A stretch of 38,465 nt of DNA, taken from Burkholderiaceae bacterium. GTDB taxonomy: Bacteria; Pseudomonadota; Gammaproteobacteria; Burkholderiales; Burkholderiaceae. The stretch covers positions 1 to 38,465 of the forward strand of contig JAIXPY010000134.1 of the NCBI GenBank assembly GCA_027486025.1, read 5' to 3'. Under the pieces are notes generated by a model. It did not search any database and was not told the origin of the DNA. It was given only the letters and a program-made list of their open reading frames with translations. The translations under genes were made by a program, and so were the position numbers. This document shows, one piece after another, positions 28,075 to 37,282 of this stretch. The stretch's first letter is position 1, and each line of letters begins with the position of its first letter.

Positions 28075-28929
28075 ATGACGCGTTTTTTTAAAGCAGTCCT
28101 TTGCCTTTGCCTCTTTGCTGCTTCACTGGGGCTCAGTGCGCAAACCGTCTTGCGCGTCACAACCATTCCAGAAGAAGCTGCAACCGAGCAGATGCGTAAA
28201 TTTGGTCCCTTGACTAAGTACCTGGAACGTACGCTGGGTACTAAAGTCGATTTTGTACCAGTCAATGACTACCCTGCTGCAGTAGAGGCACTTGTAAACA
28301 AGCAAGTTGACCTGGTTTGGTTTGGTGGCTTTACGTATGTACAAGCTCAAATTCGTTCTGGCGGAAAGATCGTTCCCATTGCGCAGCGCGAAGAAGATAC
28401 TAACTTTCGGTCTGTGTTTATTACCCAAACCAATTCTGGTATTAAGACCCTTGCTGATTTAAAAGGAAAGCAAGTCAGTTTTGGCTCGCAATCAAGTACC
28501 TCGGGCCATTTAATGCCACGCTCTTTTTTATTGGACGCTGGAATCGATCCAGATAAAGACTTTAAACGTATCGCATACTCTGGAGCGCACGATGCAACCA
28601 TTGCATCGGTTGTGAGTGGCCGGGTTGATGCGGCAGCGCTGGATATAACAGTATGGCGTAAATTTGTGGCAGAAAATAAGGTTGACACCAGCAGGGTCGA
28701 CGTATTTTATACAACCCCACCGTACTTTAACTACAACTGGTCGGTCCATGCAGACATGCCAGCAGCGCAGCGTGAAAAAATTACTGCAGCCTTGCTTAGT
28801 CTCAATATGAATAACCCAGAGGGTAAAGAAATCTTGACCCTGAATCGTGCCACTAAATACATTCCTACTAAACCAGAAAACTACAAAGGCCTGGAGAGCG
28901 CAGGACGAAGTGCTGGCTTGATTCGTTAA
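28075..28929 (+). CDS. PhnD-type ABC substrate-binding protein, putative selenate/selenium-oxyanion family
   Basis: Signal peptide then TIPEEAATEQMRKFGPLTKYLERTLGTKVDFVPVNDYPAAVEALVNKQVDLVWFGGFTYVQAQ...QREEDTNFRSVFI; immediately upstream of ATPase/permeases and selD. Confidence 0.82.
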   Translation: MTRFFKAVLCLCLFAASLGLSAQTVLRVTTIPEEAATEQMRKFGPLTKYLERTLGTKVDFVPVNDYPAAVEALVNKQVDLVWFGGFTYVQAQIRSGGKIVPIAQREEDTNFRSVFITQTNSGIKTLADLKGKQVSFGSQSSTSGHLMPRSFLLDAGIDPDKDFKRIAYSGAHDATIASVVSGRVDAAALDITVWRKFVAENKVDTSRVDVFYTTPPYFNYNWSVHADMPAAQREKITAALLSLNMNNPEGKEILTLNRATKYIPTKPENYKGLESAGRSAGLIR

Positions 28930-28937
28930 TTGACCCC

Positions 28938-29801
28938 GTGCAGAGTCAAATTACTAATCGCAAGGACTTTGGCATTGAGCTGAGCAATGTCACCGCTCAG
29001 CATCCCGCAGCATCGGTAAATGCTCCCCCAGCAATTCAGGGGCTAAGCTTAACAATCAGTTCAGGGGAGCATGTCGCCATCATTGGCCCCTCCGGGTCGG
29101 GCAAAACCAGCTGTCTGCTCGTGATTGCCGCTGCTTTAAAAGTACAGTCTGGAAATGTCGCCCTAAATCACCAGTCTGTTTGGAATTTGCCTACTCGTAA
29201 GCTACAAAAATTACGCGGCAATCTCTTTTACGCACCGCAAACGCCACCATTGCCTCCTCGGCAGCGCGTCATTACGGCTTTATTGGCAGCTAAATTACCA
29301 GGGCAGGCTTTCTTTGCTAGCCTGATGAGCTTGATTTATCCCCGGGATATAAAAGAAGCGAGTGAGGCTCTTGCGCAATTTGACCTTGCGGATAAGCTTT
29401 GGCAACGAGTAGACCGCCTTTCTGGAGGTGAGCGCCAGCGCGTTGGGTTGGCGCGTGCCTTGCTGGCACCGGCAAAGATCTGGTTAATTGACGAGCCGCT
29501 TTCGGCTTTAGATCCGACCCGAGCACGGCAGGCAATAGAAAGTCTGATTAGCCATGCAAAAGAGCATGAGGTTACTTTAATTACGAGCTTGCACCAAGTG
29601 GATGTAGCAACCAGCCAATTTCCTCGCGTCATTGGCTTGCGTGACGGAAAGCTGGTCTTCGATCTGCCGAGCAGTGAAGTCAGTAAAGAACTGTTGGCAG
29701 ATCTCTACAGGCAGCATGAGCACGAACTGGATCAAACTGCGCCTGTCTCACTCGATAGTCCTCCGGAGCCCGCTCCGGTGAAGATCATCCACTGCCGGTG
29801 A
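28938..29801 (+). CDS. ABC transporter ATP-binding protein (PhnC-like)
   Basis: IIGPSGSGKTSCLLVIAAAL Walker A, LSGGERQRVGLARALLAPAKIWLIDEPLSALDP; GTG start. Confidence 0.92.
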   Translation: MQSQITNRKDFGIELSNVTAQHPAASVNAPPAIQGLSLTISSGEHVAIIGPSGSGKTSCLLVIAAALKVQSGNVALNHQSVWNLPTRKLQKLRGNLFYAPQTPPLPPRQRVITALLAAKLPGQAFFASLMSLIYPRDIKEASEALAQFDLADKLWQRVDRLSGGERQRVGLARALLAPAKIWLIDEPLSALDPTRARQAIESLISHAKEHEVTLITSLHQVDVATSQFPRVIGLRDGKLVFDLPSSEVSKELLADLYRQHEHELDQTAPVSLDSPPEPAPVKIIHCR

Positions 29802-29807
29802 TCAGCA

Positions 29808-30650
29808 GTGCCTAGTACTACAGTCCTGCCAATGAACCCTGCGCTACGAGATCCGGCCTGGATGGGGCGACTATTTTGGTCGATCGCGATCATTGTTCTC
29901 TTGGTGCCCGCATTAATAGCAACGGAGTTTAGGCCTTGGGTTTTAGTGGAGTCGGAGAATCTCAAAGTCAGTTCTCGGTTCCTCGCTGATTTTTTTCCTC
30001 CCAATACGAAGCCTGATTTTTTATTGCTCGTTTTGAAGGAGGCATGGCGAACGATTGCGATTGCGACTGCTGGTACTTTTTTAGCGCTGCTACTGGCAAT
30101 CCCGCTGACATTAATCTCAACCCGTGTGTTATCGATCTCATCCTTATCGGGACGAATGCATCATTTGCCTTTTGCCCTGCGTCAACTCGTACGTTGGGTA
30201 TTAATCATCATTCGCAGTGTTCCCGAGTTAATTTGGGCCTTGGTATTTGTTCGGGTCGTCGGTCTTGGGCCCGCTGCAGGGGTCTTGGCAATTGGACTAA
30301 CGTATGCAGGGATGCTAGGTAAGGTCTATACCGAGATTCTAGAGAGTGGTGATCATCAGGTTTCTAGTAATTTAATGCGCAATGGTTCTAGCCGCTTACA
30401 AGCATTCTTTTACGGAGTCTTGCCGCAGAATTTAACTGAACTGACTAGCTATACCGTATACCGCTGGGAGTGCGCCATTCGGGCATCTGCCGTTCTTGGA
30501 TTTGTGGGAGCAGGGGGGCTCGGGCAACAGCTTGACAATTCGATGCGGATGTTTAACGGCGGCGAAGTAGCAACCATTTTGATTGTCTTCATGTTATTGG
30601 TTGGCTTAGCAGATCTATTAAGTGCATGGCTCAGAAAGATCCTGCAATGA
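29808..30650 (+). CDS. ABC transporter permease 1 (PhnE-like)
   Basis: Multi-TM; RSVPELIWALVFVRVVGLGPAAGVLAIGLTYAGMLGKVYTEILES EAA-like loop. Start GTG 29808 or ATG 29832. Confidence 0.88.
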   Translation: MPSTTVLPMNPALRDPAWMGRLFWSIAIIVLLVPALIATEFRPWVLVESENLKVSSRFLADFFPPNTKPDFLLLVLKEAWRTIAIATAGTFLALLLAIPLTLISTRVLSISSLSGRMHHLPFALRQLVRWVLIIIRSVPELIWALVFVRVVGLGPAAGVLAIGLTYAGMLGKVYTEILESGDHQVSSNLMRNGSSRLQAFFYGVLPQNLTELTSYTVYRWECAIRASAVLGFVGAGGLGQQLDNSMRMFNGGEVATILIVFMLLVGLADLLSAWLRKILQ

Positions 30651-31450
30651 TCAATCCGCACCCAAATCCATGGTTTCGTTGGAACTGCTCCGTGTGTTGG
30701 GTCACGCTGGGCATATTGCTATTAACAATCTTGAGTTTTTGGACTCTAGATCTTCAGTTAGAGCGCTTATTTTCGGTTGATAGTGCCAAGCGGATGGGAC
30801 GGTTCTTGGGCGAACTTCTCTCACCTGATGTGCGAGCCGTTTTTTTGCATAAACTGTGGATCGCGAGTATGGAGACCTTAGCCATGTCGGCGGTCGGTAC
30901 CATCTTGGCGGTTTTTTTTGGCTTACTGCTGGCGATTCCTGCCAGTAAAAGCCATCCTGGTGATCCTGCACATTGGCGCTTCCTGTGTCGACTCATACTC
31001 AATGGCCTTCGCTCAATACCCGAACTCGTATGGGCAGCCTTAGTTTTGATATCGGCAGGTTTAGGACCATTTGCTGGCACCTTAGCTTTAGCACTGCACA
31101 CGACGGGTGTTCTTGGCCGTTTATTTTCAGAATCCATCGAAAACGCACCCCAAGCAGCAGCGCAAGCGCTGCGGGTACAGGGCGCTTCAGAGAGCCAAGT
31201 ATTTTTATATGCCACCTTACCCACGATTATTCCGCAACTCATGTCCTATTCCCTGTATCGCTGGGAGAACAATATTCGGGCAGCTGCTATTTTGGGCGTG
31301 GTGGGAGGTGGTGGCTTGGGGCAAATGTTAGCCTTTCATATGGGGCTATTCCAAATGCAAGAGACCAGTAGCATCTTGATCGCGATGATATTACTCGTCG
31401 TTCTGGTCGATACGCTGTCTTACACCGCTAGACGTCTGATGGCGCGCTAG
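30647..31450 (+). CDS. ABC transporter permease 2 (PhnE-like)
   Basis: ATGA overlap with permease 1; NGLRSIPELVWAALVLISAGLGPFAGTLALALHTTGVLGRLFSESIENAPQAAAQAL. Confidence 0.88.
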   Translation: MINPHPNPWFRWNCSVCWVTLGILLLTILSFWTLDLQLERLFSVDSAKRMGRFLGELLSPDVRAVFLHKLWIASMETLAMSAVGTILAVFFGLLLAIPASKSHPGDPAHWRFLCRLILNGLRSIPELVWAALVLISAGLGPFAGTLALALHTTGVLGRLFSESIENAPQAAAQALRVQGASESQVFLYATLPTIIPQLMSYSLYRWENNIRAAAILGVVGGGGLGQMLAFHMGLFQMQETSSILIAMILLVVLVDTLSYTARRLMAR

Positions 31451-31525
31451 CCCAAGCATGAAGCCCTCCGAATATAATCTGGAGGCTTGTAATGATAAGG
31501 TGCCAGAGTCGCAATCCTATACCCC

Positions 31526-32677
31526 ATGCCCCATCCCCCGTTAGCCGATCATCTCTTGTATGAGCCTTATCCAAATGCTGCGCTTTTAGATGGCTGGCTG
31601 GTGAGTACAAATAGCCTGACGCGCAGCATTCTAGAAAAAATGCGGCCAGGCGATGAATCGGTTGAGATCAATTCCAGTTTGAATCCACCGCATTGGGAGT
31701 TCGGTCACCTCACCTGGTTCCATGAGTTTTGGGTGCATCGCGCTGGTCAGGTAAGCAACCCATCCCTATTGAGTGATGCGGATTATTTATTTAATTCTTC
31801 TGAAATTGCCCATCGGGATCGATGGACGATCCCGATTCCGCCGCTAGACGTACTCCTTGAATATAACGCTCGGGTCATGCAAAAGACGCGCGAGTTATTA
31901 GTGAGGTCGATTGATGCAGAGCAGGTCTACTTTATTCAGTTGGCGATTTTTCATCAGGATATGCACAACGAGGCTTTTGCGTACATGTGGCAAAGCTTAG
32001 GCTATCCAGCGCCATTCGAGCCATTTTCACGGGCTAAACTAGTCACCAATCCAGCGCCCGCATATATTCATTTTCCAGAAACGACGGTCATGGTCGGTTC
32101 TGAGCCGAAGAGTGGCTTCATTTTTGATAATGAAAAGTGGGCGCATTCCACAACACTAACCGCTTTTAGTATTGCGGAGCAGGCCGTTAGCAATGCCGAC
32201 TATTTGGAGTTTATTGAATCGCCTAGCAATCAAGCCGATTTGAACCCAGTAGCACCCCCAATGCATTGGAAAAAAGAGGGGGGAGTGTGGTGCCAGCGCT
32301 ATTTTGATGGGTGGCACGATTTATCTGAGCTTGAGCCTGTGCGGCATATTTCCTATGCGGATGCCAAACGCTATTGTGATTGGCGTCAGTTGCGCCTACC
32401 TACGGAGCATGAGCTGAGTTTATTGATGGCCCAAAAACAACAGGATTGGCAGCCCTCCCATTTATGGGAATGGACCAGTAGCCCGTTTGCACCCTTTCCT
32501 GGATTTAGCAGTGATCCGTATGCCGATTACTCTCAGCCCTGGTTTGATGGCAAGCACCAGGTCCTAAAGGGGTGGAGTATGTATACCCCGGAGCGCTTAA
32601 GGCGCAGTCAATTTCGTAATTTTTATGCCCCCCACCGCAAAGACCACTTTTGTGGGTTTCGCACGTGTTTACTTTAA
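31526..32677 (+). CDS. senA: EgtB-like nonheme-iron sulfoxide/selenoxide synthase, probable selenoneine synthase SenA
   Basis: HWEFGHLTWFHEFWVHRAG, FHQDMHNEAFAYMWQ (His ligands), C-terminal FGE-sulfatase-like LRLPTEHEL...LWEWTSSPFAPFPGF...RRSQFRNFYAPHRKDHFCGFR; next to selD, egtD and a SenB-like GT. Confidence 0.82.
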   Translation: MPHPPLADHLLYEPYPNAALLDGWLVSTNSLTRSILEKMRPGDESVEINSSLNPPHWEFGHLTWFHEFWVHRAGQVSNPSLLSDADYLFNSSEIAHRDRWTIPIPPLDVLLEYNARVMQKTRELLVRSIDAEQVYFIQLAIFHQDMHNEAFAYMWQSLGYPAPFEPFSRAKLVTNPAPAYIHFPETTVMVGSEPKSGFIFDNEKWAHSTTLTAFSIAEQAVSNADYLEFIESPSNQADLNPVAPPMHWKKEGGVWCQRYFDGWHDLSELEPVRHISYADAKRYCDWRQLRLPTEHELSLLMAQKQQDWQPSHLWEWTSSPFAPFPGFSSDPYADYSQPWFDGKHQVLKGWSMYTPERLRRSQFRNFYAPHRKDHFCGFRTCLL

Positions 32678-32737
32678 ATTGAGTAAGCTTACCTAGTCCT
32701 GGCATTTGCCATTTTTTAAATACTAAATACATTCTTT

Positions 32738-33784
32738 ATGACTACTTCGTATAACGGCCGCTTAACTTCTTTATCGCATGGTGGAGGCTGTGGCTGCAAG
32801 ATTGCCCCAGGAATCCTGAGCGATATTCTGAAAGCCTCACCCATCCGCAATTTGCCTGCTGCGTTACTCGCCGGCTCTGACAATAATGAAGATGCCGCGG
32901 TCTATCAAATTAATGAGCATCAAGCGATCGTTGCTACAACGGATTTCTTCATGCCCATTGTGGATGATCCATTTGAGTTTGGCCGGATTGCCGCAACCAA
33001 TGCCATTTCGGATATCTATGCCATGGGTGCCCAGCCCTTGTTTGCACTCGCACTATTAGGCATGCCGATTGGAGTTTTACCCTTAGATGTGATTCAACAA
33101 GTCACTGCTGGCGGGGAATCGGTCTGCAATGATGCGGGCATCATGATTGCTGGCGGCCACTCCATTGATACAGTTGAGCCCATTTATGGTTTAGTCGCGA
33201 TTGGTGTTGTAGACCCCAAAAAACTCAAACTTAATAGTGGCGCCCGGGCAGGTGATAGCATCATTTTGAGTAAGCCATTAGGAGTAGGCATTCTTTCTGC
33301 AGCGCTAAAAAAAGAGCTGCTCTCCGAGGCAGGCTATCACGAGATGATTGCGCTGACCACCAAATTGAATAAGCCTGGCGTTGCCCTGGCACAGCTCGAT
33401 GGTGTCCATGCCCTAACGGACGTCACCGGTTTTGGCTTAGCAGGACATCTTCTGGAAATGGCCAGGGGATCGAAGTTAATGGCGCAAGTCAATTGGGATG
33501 CCATTCCAGTCGTTCAGGAAGCGGTCGAGCACGTCAAGGCCGATATCTATACGGGCGCCTCTACGCGCAATTGGGCTGGCTATGGCAGCGAAGTAAGCCT
33601 CGCGAGTAACCTGGCGTTGTGGCAACAAAACCTATTGACCGATCCACAGACGAGTGGTGGTCTGCTCATTTCGTGCGCGCCAGAACAAGAGGCGGAAGTC
33701 CTGTCGATTCTAAATAAAGGCGGCTTTGCCAGCGCCCAGAAAATAGGTCATTTTGCTGCGGGTACCGGATTATCGGTTGTATAG
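32738..33784 (+). CDS. selD: Selenide, water dikinase (selenophosphate synthetase), Cys form; SenC role
   Basis: SLSHGGGCGCKIAPGILSDIL, DNNEDAAVYQI, ATTDFFMPIVDDPFEFGRIAATNAISDIYAMGAQP, DVTGFGLAGHLLEMA, DPQTSGGLLI. Confidence 0.96.
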   Translation: MTTSYNGRLTSLSHGGGCGCKIAPGILSDILKASPIRNLPAALLAGSDNNEDAAVYQINEHQAIVATTDFFMPIVDDPFEFGRIAATNAISDIYAMGAQPLFALALLGMPIGVLPLDVIQQVTAGGESVCNDAGIMIAGGHSIDTVEPIYGLVAIGVVDPKKLKLNSGARAGDSIILSKPLGVGILSAALKKELLSEAGYHEMIALTTKLNKPGVALAQLDGVHALTDVTGFGLAGHLLEMARGSKLMAQVNWDAIPVVQEAVEHVKADIYTGASTRNWAGYGSEVSLASNLALWQQNLLTDPQTSGGLLISCAPEQEAEVLSILNKGGFASAQKIGHFAAGTGLSVV

Positions 33785-33796
33785 AAAGAGATTGCA

Positions 33797-34729
33797 GTGA
33801 AACAAACCTTGCTTGAAGAATTGCATCTTAGCCTAACTGCCGATGCGCCCTTTATATCGCCTAAGTTTTTCTACGATGACATCGGCTCTCATCTCTTTGA
33901 TGTCATTACCTTGCTCGAGGAGTATTACCCCACGCGCACGGAGCAATGGATCATGGATGCCCATCGCGCTGCTATTGCGCAGGCTGTAGGCGACTGCGAC
34001 GTGTTGCTCGACCTTGGGGCAGGCAATTGCGCTAAGGCAAGTCAGCTTTTTAATAGCATTCAACCAAAGCAATACCGGGCGCTGGATATCTCTAAAGAGT
34101 ATCTAGAGGCTGCCGTTGCTGATCTCCAAAAAAAGTACCCACAGATTGACATGTGCGCAGAGGCGATTGACTTAAGCTTGCCCCTGGCATTTCCGGATAT
34201 TGCAGAACGCCGGAAGATCTTTTTCTTTCCGGGATCCTCGATTGGAAACTACGACCCCAAAAAAGCAGATCAATTTTTTGCTAATCTCGCACAGGAATGC
34301 CATGGCAATGGTGGGCTGTTAATCGGCGTTGACTTAGTCAAAGATCGTGAAACATTGCATCTTGCCTACAACGACCCTTTGGGTGTTACCGCATCGTTTA
34401 ATTTAAATATTCTTTTAAATGTCAATCGAATCACGGGCAGTAACTTTAATCTGCAGGATTGGGAACACGTCGCCTTCTTTAATGAATCACAGTCTCGCAT
34501 TGAGATGCACCTGCGTGCGCGATCGGATGTAGAAGTACACCTTCCGAATGATGGCAGCAAAGGACATGCTATTCAATTCAAGGCGGGTGATTTGATCCAT
34601 ACCGAAAACAGCTATAAGTACACGCAAGAGGGCTTTACAGAAAAGCTCCGCCAAGCAGGATTTGACAACATACAAACGTGGACAGATCCCAAGAAGCACT
34701 TTTTGGTGTGCTTCGCCAATGCTAAATAA
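33797..34729 (+). CDS. egtD: L-histidine N(alpha)-methyltransferase (hercynine synthase)
   Basis: PKFFYDDIGSHLFDVITLLEEYYPTRTE, VLLDLGAGNCAKASQL, FFFPGSSIGNYDP, LLIGVDLVKDRETLHLAYND. Confidence 0.94.
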   Translation: MKQTLLEELHLSLTADAPFISPKFFYDDIGSHLFDVITLLEEYYPTRTEQWIMDAHRAAIAQAVGDCDVLLDLGAGNCAKASQLFNSIQPKQYRALDISKEYLEAAVADLQKKYPQIDMCAEAIDLSLPLAFPDIAERRKIFFFPGSSIGNYDPKKADQFFANLAQECHGNGGLLIGVDLVKDRETLHLAYNDPLGVTASFNLNILLNVNRITGSNFNLQDWEHVAFFNESQSRIEMHLRARSDVEVHLPNDGSKGHAIQFKAGDLIHTENSYKYTQEGFTEKLRQAGFDNIQTWTDPKKHFLVCFANAK

Positions 34730-34743
34730 TGAACGTAAGCTAG

Positions 34744-34798
34744 CGCTATTACTACATAGTTGCTGCATAGTTAATGCGCAGTTAATCTGTAGTTACTG
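34744..34798. repeat. Degenerate 11-bp tandem repeat between convergent egtD and senB
   Basis: CATAGTTGCTG / CATAGTTAATG / CGCAGTTAATC / TGTAGTTACTG (34755-34798), with a weaker copy CGCTATTACTA at 34744-34754. Confidence 0.65.
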
Positions 34799-35752
34799 CG
34801 TGATTAAGCTGCTCACCAAATCGTGAATAGACTGTTTCTCACGTGCTGGTGTAATCAGCTCTCTGCGTAAATCAATGTGCTTTTGCAGTGATGCAAAAAA
34901 GCTAGGCATCTTTTCCGCGCGATATAAAACAGTAGCCAGTGCATTCTCATCGCCTACTGGGTAGTAGCCGGGGTAATCTTCACCCAGCAAACCGCGATTG
35001 CCTGGAATGTCTGATGCGATCACCGGAATGCCGAGCGCAATCGCCTCGGAGACGACGTGAGCGCCACCTTCCATGCGGCTAGAAATGACCATCAGGCGAC
35101 TATTGGAAAGCATCTTCAAGGCATCTGCATGACTCACCTCACCAAGCCATTGGTAGCGATCGATGGTTGCATTGAAATTTTCGGCCTGATCTTTCATTTG
35201 CGCGTTCATTGCCTGACCTAAATGCTTTACCGTGATTTTGGAATCGGCTGGCAATAGCGGGAGGCTACGCACTATACAAAAGGGATCTTTCTCATCCCTG
35301 AGGTGCCCAATCACGCTAACTAAAAAGTCTTCTTTACTAGCCGAATCCCTTATATCCATCTCAACCGATTGATAGATCACTTGGACTTTATATTGGAGGT
35401 GAGTGGGTACGGAATGGATTGCGGCTGCCTGCAAGACAACTAACTGATTTGCAATCTCCATCGATTGAAGCACTTCACTGTGATTTGCTATGTCCCGATA
35501 GATATCAGTTCCGGTCAGAATCAAAACAATGGGTCTGCCGGAGTATTGTTTCTTAAACGCCACAATGGATTGGTGGCTACGATAGGCATGCAGTGCGATT
35601 AATAAACCAGTATCACCTCCAGACCACGACTCGGTGACATCCACCGAATAGCCAAGCTCCTCCAAAAATCCTCGCCAGCGCAGGGCAGTGATCCGGTTTC
35701 CATGGAGACTCCCAGCTGGTGCCGGGGTCACGATTTCAATCAGGGGTTTGAT
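34793..35752 (-). CDS. senB: TIGR04348-like glycosyltransferase, probable selenosugar synthase SenB
   Basis: IVTPAPAGSLHGNRITALRWRGFLEELGY, LLIALHAYRSHQSIVAF, LTGTDIYRDI, LVVLQ, ISSRMEGGAHVVSEAIALGIPVIASDIPGNRGLLG. 5' end uncertain: ORF track uses GTG 35731; homology style suggests a start near 35752. Confidence 0.85.
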   Translation of the reverse strand: MKPLIEIVTPAPAGSLHGNRITALRWRGFLEELGYSVDVTESWSGGDTGLLIALHAYRSHQSIVAFKKQYSGRPIVLILTGTDIYRDIANHSEVLQSMEIANQLVVLQAAAIHSVPTHLQYKVQVIYQSVEMDIRDSASKEDFLVSVIGHLRDEKDPFCIVRSLPLLPADSKITVKHLGQAMNAQMKDQAENFNATIDRYQWLGEVSHADALKMLSNSRLMVISSRMEGGAHVVSEAIALGIPVIASDIPGNRGLLGEDYPGYYPVGDENALATVLYRAEKMPSFFASLQKHIDLRRELITPAREKQSIHDLVSSLITQ

Positions 35753-35764
35753 GTTCGGCCTTTA

Positions 35765-37282
35765 TTAAATGTTCTTATGCTTGATTTTAGGCGTTAGCAA
35801 AGCCTGCGCTAACAGAGCCAAAATAGCCGCCGGAATGGCTCCAGCCAGCATCAGGGCATGGTCATTTACGGCAAGTCCAGCCACGATGCGATCGCCAAAG
35901 CCTCCAGCGCCCACGAGCGCCGCTAGGGTGCACGTACCGACGCCGATTACGGTGGCGGATGAGAGACCGGTCATGATGACCGACTTAGCGGATGGAAGCT
36001 CGATGGATAAAAGCAATTGCTTATTACTGCAGCCCAGGGCAAGCGCCGCTTCTTTTAAATTGGCAGGTACTTCCATGAGGCCAATGTGGGTTGCATTCAC
36101 AATCGGCAGTAAGCCATACAGAAACAGGGCGATAACGGCCGGAACGGCGCCAATCTGATCTAAAGCAGCTATTAGGATTGTCAATAAAGCCAGTGACGGA
36201 ATGGTCTGTAAGATTCCAGCGGCGCCCAGTATCCATACTGCAAAACGCGGGCGGCGCTGCGCTAGAACACCCAAGGGAATGCCAACGAGGAGGGCGAGCG
36301 TCGACGAGATGACGACCAACAGCACATGGTCTCGTAGTGCAGTAAAAAAATCAGGCCCAAAGAGGAGCTTAAAAAAACGAGCAGAAGTCGATGCATTCCC
36401 CTCTTGAGCGGATGCGGAATTCAAAAAGGTTCTCGCCACTTGTTCAAAATTAGCGCCCGCTTCGGCTTGCCCATTCAGTTTTGCCATCGCTGCTTCATTT
36501 AGACGGTTGGTTAAGTTTTGCAGGGGCTTTTCATCAAAATCAGAGCGCATTAGAAGTACTGCGTCGTAACGCGGAAATGCCTGCCGATCATCCTCCAGTA
36601 AGACTAAGCTTTGCTTCTCAATGGCCGCATCAGTCGTGTACGCATCGACAATATCGACATCACCACGGGCGAGGGCGCCATACGCTAAACCATGTTCTAA
36701 AACGCGCTGAGGCTGGATCGTGAGCTTATAGCCTTTGACTAGGGCAGGCCATCCATCCATTCGCGTCTTAAATTCAGGGGAGAGGGCAATGCGCAGCTTC
36801 GATTGTTGCTCCGGGGTCAACTTGGTAATATCACTGATTTTTTTGATACCCAAGGCATTGGCTCGATCCGCCTTCATGGCCAAGGCGTAGGAATTATTAA
36901 AGCCCAGCGGTATCGCCACTTTAAGCCCCATAGGCGCCAGCATGCTATTGAGATCAGCAAGCGAAACGGCAGACTCGGGTCGCTTTAGTATCTCGCGCAC
37001 AATAGTGCCAGTGTATTCAGGGTAAATATCAATTTGCCCGGTGGTGAGGGCTTTTAGGACGATTGCGGTATTGCCAAGTCCTTGGCGATGAATCGATTGA
37101 ACACCGGCATCACGCAAGGATAGATTGATGATCTCACCCAGCACATAACTCTCGGTAAACCGTTTTGATCCAACCGTCACTTTTGATTCGGCTGGCTGAG
37201 CCATGCCAGAGCAGCTAAATGCCAGACCTAGGCATAGGCTGACTTTGATCCAGGCGCGAAAAATAGACCGATTAATTGACAA
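35765..37282 (-). CDS. Fused substrate-binding/permease osmoprotectant-type ABC transporter (OsmF/EgtU-like)
   Basis: Signal peptide, VTVGSKRFTESYVLGEIINL...GQIDIYPEYTGTI binding domain, then RPRFAVWILGAAGILQTIPSLALLTILIAAL...VGAGGFGDRIVAGLAVND permease; stop 12 bp upstream of the inferred senB start. Confidence 0.9.
   Translation of the reverse strand: MSINRSIFRAWIKVSLCLGLAFSCSGMAQPAESKVTVGSKRFTESYVLGEIINLSLRDAGVQSIHRQGLGNTAIVLKALTTGQIDIYPEYTGTIVREILKRPESAVSLADLNSMLAPMGLKVAIPLGFNNSYALAMKADRANALGIKKISDITKLTPEQQSKLRIALSPEFKTRMDGWPALVKGYKLTIQPQRVLEHGLAYGALARGDVDIVDAYTTDAAIEKQSLVLLEDDRQAFPRYDAVLLMRSDFDEKPLQNLTNRLNEAAMAKLNGQAEAGANFEQVARTFLNSASAQEGNASTSARFFKLLFGPDFFTALRDHVLLVVISSTLALLVGIPLGVLAQRRPRFAVWILGAAGILQTIPSLALLTILIAALDQIGAVPAVIALFLYGLLPIVNATHIGLMEVPANLKEAALALGCSNKQLLLSIELPSAKSVIMTGLSSATVIGVGTCTLAALVGAGGFGDRIVAGLAVNDHALMLAGAIPAAILALLAQALLTPKIKHKNI

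Follow-up and report, generated by a model that had tools for sequence, protein, structure and literature searches.

Introduction

The selenoneine biosynthetic pathway has been published (PMC9814287; PMC10702425), and the sen cluster of Variovorax paradoxus, which encodes SenA, SenB and SenC/SelD, is the described system that we take as the main point of comparison. A homologous selenoxide synthase fold is found in OvsA from Halomonas utahensis, a histidine-using enzyme of ovoselenol synthesis. As to selenium uptake, according to a review of May 2026 a specific transport system with high affinity for selenium is yet to be identified in any prokaryote (PMC13188914), and NCBIfam holds a family, TIGR04553, of putative selenate ATP-binding cassette (ABC) transporter binding proteins, so that the guess of selenate as the cargo is already contained in a family name. 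Here, we analyse a contig of 38,465 nucleotides from a Burkholderiaceae bacterium (JAIXPY010000134.1; the window, i.e., the whole stretch of DNA analysed), in which genes for a PhnD-type ABC importer, a SenA-like enzyme, SelD, EgtD and SenB lie side by side. The window quite probably carries a selenoneine locus of Polynucleobacter with an uptake cassette of its own, in which the importer would bring in a selenium oxyanion and SelD would be shared with SelU. We computed to which families the proteins belong, which active-site residues they keep, and how the genes are linked and co-occur across genomes; the selenoneine product and the importer cargo are predicted.

With the V. paradoxus cluster the locus shares the SenB family including its catalytic residues, SelD, and a SenA-like enzyme of the same fold with a hercynine-type residue triad. 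It differs in that the gene run adds egtD and the ABC importer, that the SenA-like protein belongs to a different clade and scores under the NCBI SenA cut-off, and that senB is convergent and has a non-AUG start. From OvsA the window enzyme is distinguished by hercynine-type residues and an EgtD partner. The EgtB-EgtD ergothioneine pathway of other Polynucleobacter has the EgtD step in common with the locus and differs by a true EgtB that scores over its cut-off, in genomes that have no SenB. The importer is a full ABC cassette whose binding protein belongs to TIGR04553, and it lies next to selenoneine genes, while the cargo of that family is a database prediction. With the PhnD1/PtxB importers of phosphite, phosphate and phosphonate it shares the fold and the oxyanion-binding residues, whereas its binding protein lies under the PhnD cut-off, has an aspartate-to-asparagine exchange in the pocket and is tied to selenium genes. 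A description of the linkage between this importer and sen genes was not found in the papers that could be searched, which did not include the original sen cluster paper. The compact locus pairs a strong candidate importer with a complete, assayable selenium pathway, which makes the uptake question directly testable, and, through a divergent SenA clade, it would add a widespread group of freshwater bacteria to those that make selenoneine.

Gene Content and Proposed Pathway

The genes are as follows, with profile scores and family cut-offs in bits.

28075-28929, plus strand: periplasmic binding protein of a PhnD-type ABC importer (TIGR04553 363, cut-off 250; PhnD TIGR03431 165, cut-off 261)
28938-29801, plus strand: PhnC-like ATPase of the ABC importer (TIGR02315 187, under the cut-off of 266; Pfam ABC_tran)
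29808-30650, plus strand: PhnE-like permease 1 of the ABC importer (TIGR01097 217.4, cut-off 216.7)
30626-31450, plus strand: PhnE-like permease 2 of the ABC importer (TIGR01097 254; overlaps permease 1 by 25 bp)
31526-32677, plus strand: predicted SenA-like Fe-dependent selenoneine synthase (NF041186 397, under the cut-off of 420; EgtB TIGR03440 205, cut-off 360)
32738-33784, plus strand: SelD/SenC selenophosphate synthetase (TIGR00476 413, cut-off 125; NF002098 507, cut-off 299)
33797-34729, plus strand: EgtD histidine N-alpha-trimethyltransferase, forming hercynine (TIGR03438 346, cut-off 290.9)
34793-35752, minus strand: SenB selenosugar synthase, a GT-B glycosyltransferase with start codon ATC (TIGR04348 378-383, cut-off 300)
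35765-37282, minus strand: betaine-type ABC gene, a fusion of binding domain and permease (Pfam OpuAC and BPD_transp_1; membership in the system uncertain)

All eight genes from the binding protein to senB were recovered by open reading frame, profile and Pfam matches with the content, order and strands given by an earlier first-pass annotation of this DNA. The plus-strand run (28075-34729) is tightly packed with successive gaps of 8, 6, -25, 75, 60 and 12 bp, egtD and senB converge with 63 bp between them, and the G+C content is 48.9% inside the locus and 49.5% outside. The gene set is far beyond chance, because most matches of its proteins to specific families have E-values <1e-60 and because it recurs in other species. 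The source assembly comprises 1.87 Mb in 206 contigs, one of which is the window, and is 85% complete; absences from it are thus provisional. Its nearest named relatives are metagenome-assembled genomes of Polynucleobacter, some of them labelled P. meluiroseus, and the host is a freshwater Polynucleobacter.

In the proposed pathway, the ABC importer would bring selenate or selenite into the cell, and enzymes encoded elsewhere would reduce the oxyanion to selenide. Judged by their families, SelD would then form selenophosphate, SenB would move the selenium onto a UDP-sugar, EgtD would make hercynine by trimethylation of histidine, and at C2 of this hercynine the SenA-like iron enzyme would attach the selenium of the selenosugar; the selenoxide would subsequently eliminate and be reduced to selenoneine. 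SelD would also supply SelU for the synthesis of 2-selenouridine in tRNA. Selenoneine synthesis is the best reading of the biosynthetic genes and, as proposed in the first-pass annotation, is supported by protein families, active-site residues, the phylogenetic tree and the predicted structure. The further claim that the locus holds the whole route from oxyanion import to selenoneine was overstated, since no selenate or selenite reductase is found within it.

The Biosynthetic Enzymes

The glycosyltransferase scores well above the curated SenB threshold, so that its earlier assignment to this family stands. All 12 functionally tested residues of the Variovorax SenB (N20, T23, H58, R61, T83, T85, Q131, R155, K158, E231, H235, and E239), which were examined by mutagenesis (PMC10891094), are identical in the window SenB at an overall identity of 35%. 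The senB frame has no ATG, GTG or TTG at its natural N-terminus. The start lies at an ATC (35752-35750, minus strand), in agreement with the end coordinate 35752 reported before, and its position is kept in relatives: in about 17 Polynucleobacter an ATC (ATT in a few) stands there behind an AGG or GGA motif, and in other relatives TTG or ATG takes its place or lies close by. From this pattern, senB appears to initiate at AUC, a conserved non-AUG start.

EgtD scores above its family cut-off, has EgtD 4pim as its best PDB match and keeps the GS-IGN, EM and E-S-K motifs in the alignment. SelD is the single SelD match in the whole assembly. The suggestion that this SelD serves the small molecule rather than seleno-tRNA did not survive the genome-wide search, as selU is present on another contig (G000:C161:26812-27732, 363 bits, cut-off 219.75). 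SelD is most likely common to the seleno-tRNA and selenoneine pathways, because selU is encoded elsewhere in the assembly and only one SelD is matched; a SelD reserved for selenoneine is rejected on the same grounds. A search of the 85%-complete assembly for selA found none. Among the 56 Polynucleobacter genomes tested, selU is present in 55 and selA in 3.

As the first-pass annotation had assumed, the EgtB-like protein is a SenA-like enzyme and not an EgtB. In sequence searches, the Variovorax SenA ranks highest with 196 bits, followed by OvsA (154) and EgtB (84). An AlphaFold (AF2) model with a predicted local distance difference test score (pLDDT) of 87.8 gives the same order of fold matches, SenA structures leading (the best being Variovorax SenA, 8ryz), then OvsA and then EgtB. 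In a tree of SenA, OvsA and EgtB with 48 rows, the protein lies outside EgtB with a support of 100/97, in a clade of its own consisting mostly of SenB-linked enzymes. The three-histidine iron site (H61/H143/H147) is invariant. Y335, N365 and F366 form the Tyr/Asn/Phe hercynine-type triad and are invariant across 25 relatives; this triad was assigned by aligning the window protein with the chains of wild-type OvsA, which has Met/Gln/Ala at these positions, and of the OvsA variant M401Y/Q430N/A431F (PDB 8ux5), which according to its entry title shows hercynine binding and selenoneine-forming activity.

Some results weigh against an unqualified assignment to SenA. The NF041186 cut-off is missed by the window protein, which is therefore filed as SenA-like and not as a certified SenA, and it is passed in none of the 151 Polynucleobacter genomes searched. 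OvsA falls inside the SenA-like part of the tree in a different subclade, so that the tree by itself gives no function, and a single SenA clade without OvsA is neither demonstrated nor rejected (approximately unbiased test, p-AU 0.07). The missed cut-off, the place of OvsA within the SenB-linked tree and its rank as the second-best solved match would suit an enzyme that makes an ovoselenol-type product from histidine instead of selenoneine. We regard this as very improbable in view of the hercynine-making EgtD in the same gene run, the separate subclade of OvsA and the triad, which is that of the hercynine-binding variant and not of the wild-type enzyme. Hercynine and selenoneine are favoured over histidine and ovoselenol because of the triad and the adjacent EgtD. 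That the locus makes ergothioneine, with an ordinary EgtB and with SenB as a sugar transferase of some other pathway, is more improbable still: the presence of EgtD and a superfamily shared with EgtB would fit, but the EgtB score is far under the cut-off, EgtB branches outside, and SenB is confirmed down to its catalytic residues. Moreover, in SenB-less Polynucleobacter (L109-L113) EgtD is accompanied by a distinct, true EgtB (cut-off 360; the two that were scanned score 481 and 505 bits). An ordinary ergothioneine EgtB was thus rejected on profile score, tree and these relatives, whose EgtD-EgtB pair divides the genus into predicted ergothioneine makers and predicted selenoneine makers.

The Importer and Its Predicted Cargo

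The first-pass annotation regarded the PhnD-like protein as part of a selenate importer. Its TIGR04553 membership holds, and selenate import is plausible and backed by comparative genomics, but the pocket residues are of the phosphate/phosphite type and leave the cargo a prediction; selenate in the family name is itself putative. We compared the occurrence of the importer and of selenium genes in 151 genomes of Polynucleobacter and 349 genomes of the order with Fisher tests, in which related genomes count as independent and shared ancestry is ignored. In Polynucleobacter, SenB is present in 30/33 importer-positive and 19/118 importer-negative genomes (p=1.6e-15), and the three importer-positive genomes without SenB are two with selA and one in which the sen genes have decayed. 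Across the order, the corresponding numbers are 48/76 and 62/273 (p=1.6e-10), and 70 of the 76 importer-positive genomes have SelD. Physical linkage is stronger evidence than these tests. Importer and SenB lie at most 15 kb apart in 13 of the 48 genomes of the order that have both, in seven families, with 0.44 expected, and in some SenB-less genomes the importer adjoins selD.

Selenoneine loci acquired the importer on more than one occasion, because the binding-protein tree holds at least 9 changes between sen-linked and unlinked states and because a split with 100/99 support separates the window-type importer, which precedes senA, from the type that is commoner in Polynucleobacter and sits between selD and egtD. 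The importer makes a good candidate for the dedicated selenium uptake system that is so far missing. Whether the TIGR04553 cassette is a dedicated high-affinity bacterial importer of selenium oxyanions, which selenoneine loci have independently recruited several times to feed a shared SelD, is evenly balanced in our judgement.

The case for selenium as the cargo is one of genomic context, and several findings tell against it. The oxyanion pocket, compared with the oxyanion-holding residues of PhnD1 (PMC5700983; PMC10284923), is that of phosphate/phosphite proteins: Y66, S141, T142, S143, H172 and the capping Y220 are kept, and N219 stands in place of D205 of the Prochlorococcus PhnD. As all oxyanion residues are kept, the pocket is compatible with any small tetrahedral oxyanion, and its sequence does not tell the two selenium oxyanions, selenate and selenite, apart from phosphate and phosphite. 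The exchange at position 219 was considered as a selenate signature and dismissed, as other sen-linked importers keep the aspartate and some cyanobacterial PhnD1 carry asparagine. In the order, 28 genomes have the importer and no SenB, and 15 of these also have no selA, so that the importer is not confined to users of selenoneine or selenocysteine; in three importer-positive genomes, SelD and SenB are both missing.

These findings leave room for a reading in which the biosynthetic genes make selenoneine and the adjacent ABC cassette has no part in selenium metabolism but imports phosphate, phosphite or a small phosphonate. The nearest solved relatives, PhnD1 of Prochlorococcus and Synechococcus, bind phosphite, phosphate and methylphosphonate, and both the complete set of oxygen-binding residues with the capping tyrosine and the occurrence of the aspartate-to-asparagine exchange in some cyanobacterial PhnD1 fit such a cargo. 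Nevertheless, we consider this possibility rather unlikely: it would not account for the strong co-occurrence with SenB and SelD or for the way in which the cassette became joined to sen or selD genes several times over, independently and in different families, and the binding protein scores over the TIGR04553 cut-off and far under that of PhnD. A selenoneine locus with its own selenium uptake cassette is the reading that we prefer.

Neighbouring Gene and Loci in Relatives

The gene senB does not stand isolated, since a gene for an OpuAC-permease fusion on the same strand ends 12 bp upstream of it. In other Polynucleobacter, this betaine-type fusion gene is found directly before senB (L064, L073, L078), senA (L066, L067, L074, L080, L083) or egtD (L096), and because it is placed before different genes in different relatives, this suggests that it is more than a fixed neighbour of the sen genes. 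No ATPase gene for this transporter was found nearby in the loci examined, and in one sen-less genome no match to the fusion protein was obtained in the 0.4 of 1.55 Mb searched. Its pocket has F42, Y90 and F128 as in the glycine-betaine protein ProX. A role as a selenoneine or ergothioneine importer of the EgtU type is disfavoured, as the three markers of the EgtU binding domain (Gly244, Phe293, and Tyr337; PMC9732360) are not matched.

Rfam and tRNA scans of the window gave no match, and a promoter and terminator scan gave fewer matches than in shuffled sequence. A candidate regulatory hairpin between permease 2 and the SenA-like gene was discarded, being not conserved and having a fold z of -0.27.

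SenB homologues, including top-scoring TIGR04348 members, also occur where the fetched region holds no SenA and no EgtD (L101, L118; L102, L104, L105; L127-L129, L131, L134-L138, L140). They are found with SelD alone alongside, upstream of a gene for a major facilitator superfamily (MFS)-like transporter, or in conserved housekeeping neighbourhoods, and they hint at uses of the selenosugar other than selenoneine. One Polynucleobacter genome (G406) has two senA-egtD-senB sets (L076, L077), neither of them adjoined by selD. Decaying sen loci are found in two further genomes: in one (L108, G446) the gene for the importer binding protein is broken along with senA, egtD and senB while selD is intact, and in the other (L092, G451) senB is split in two.

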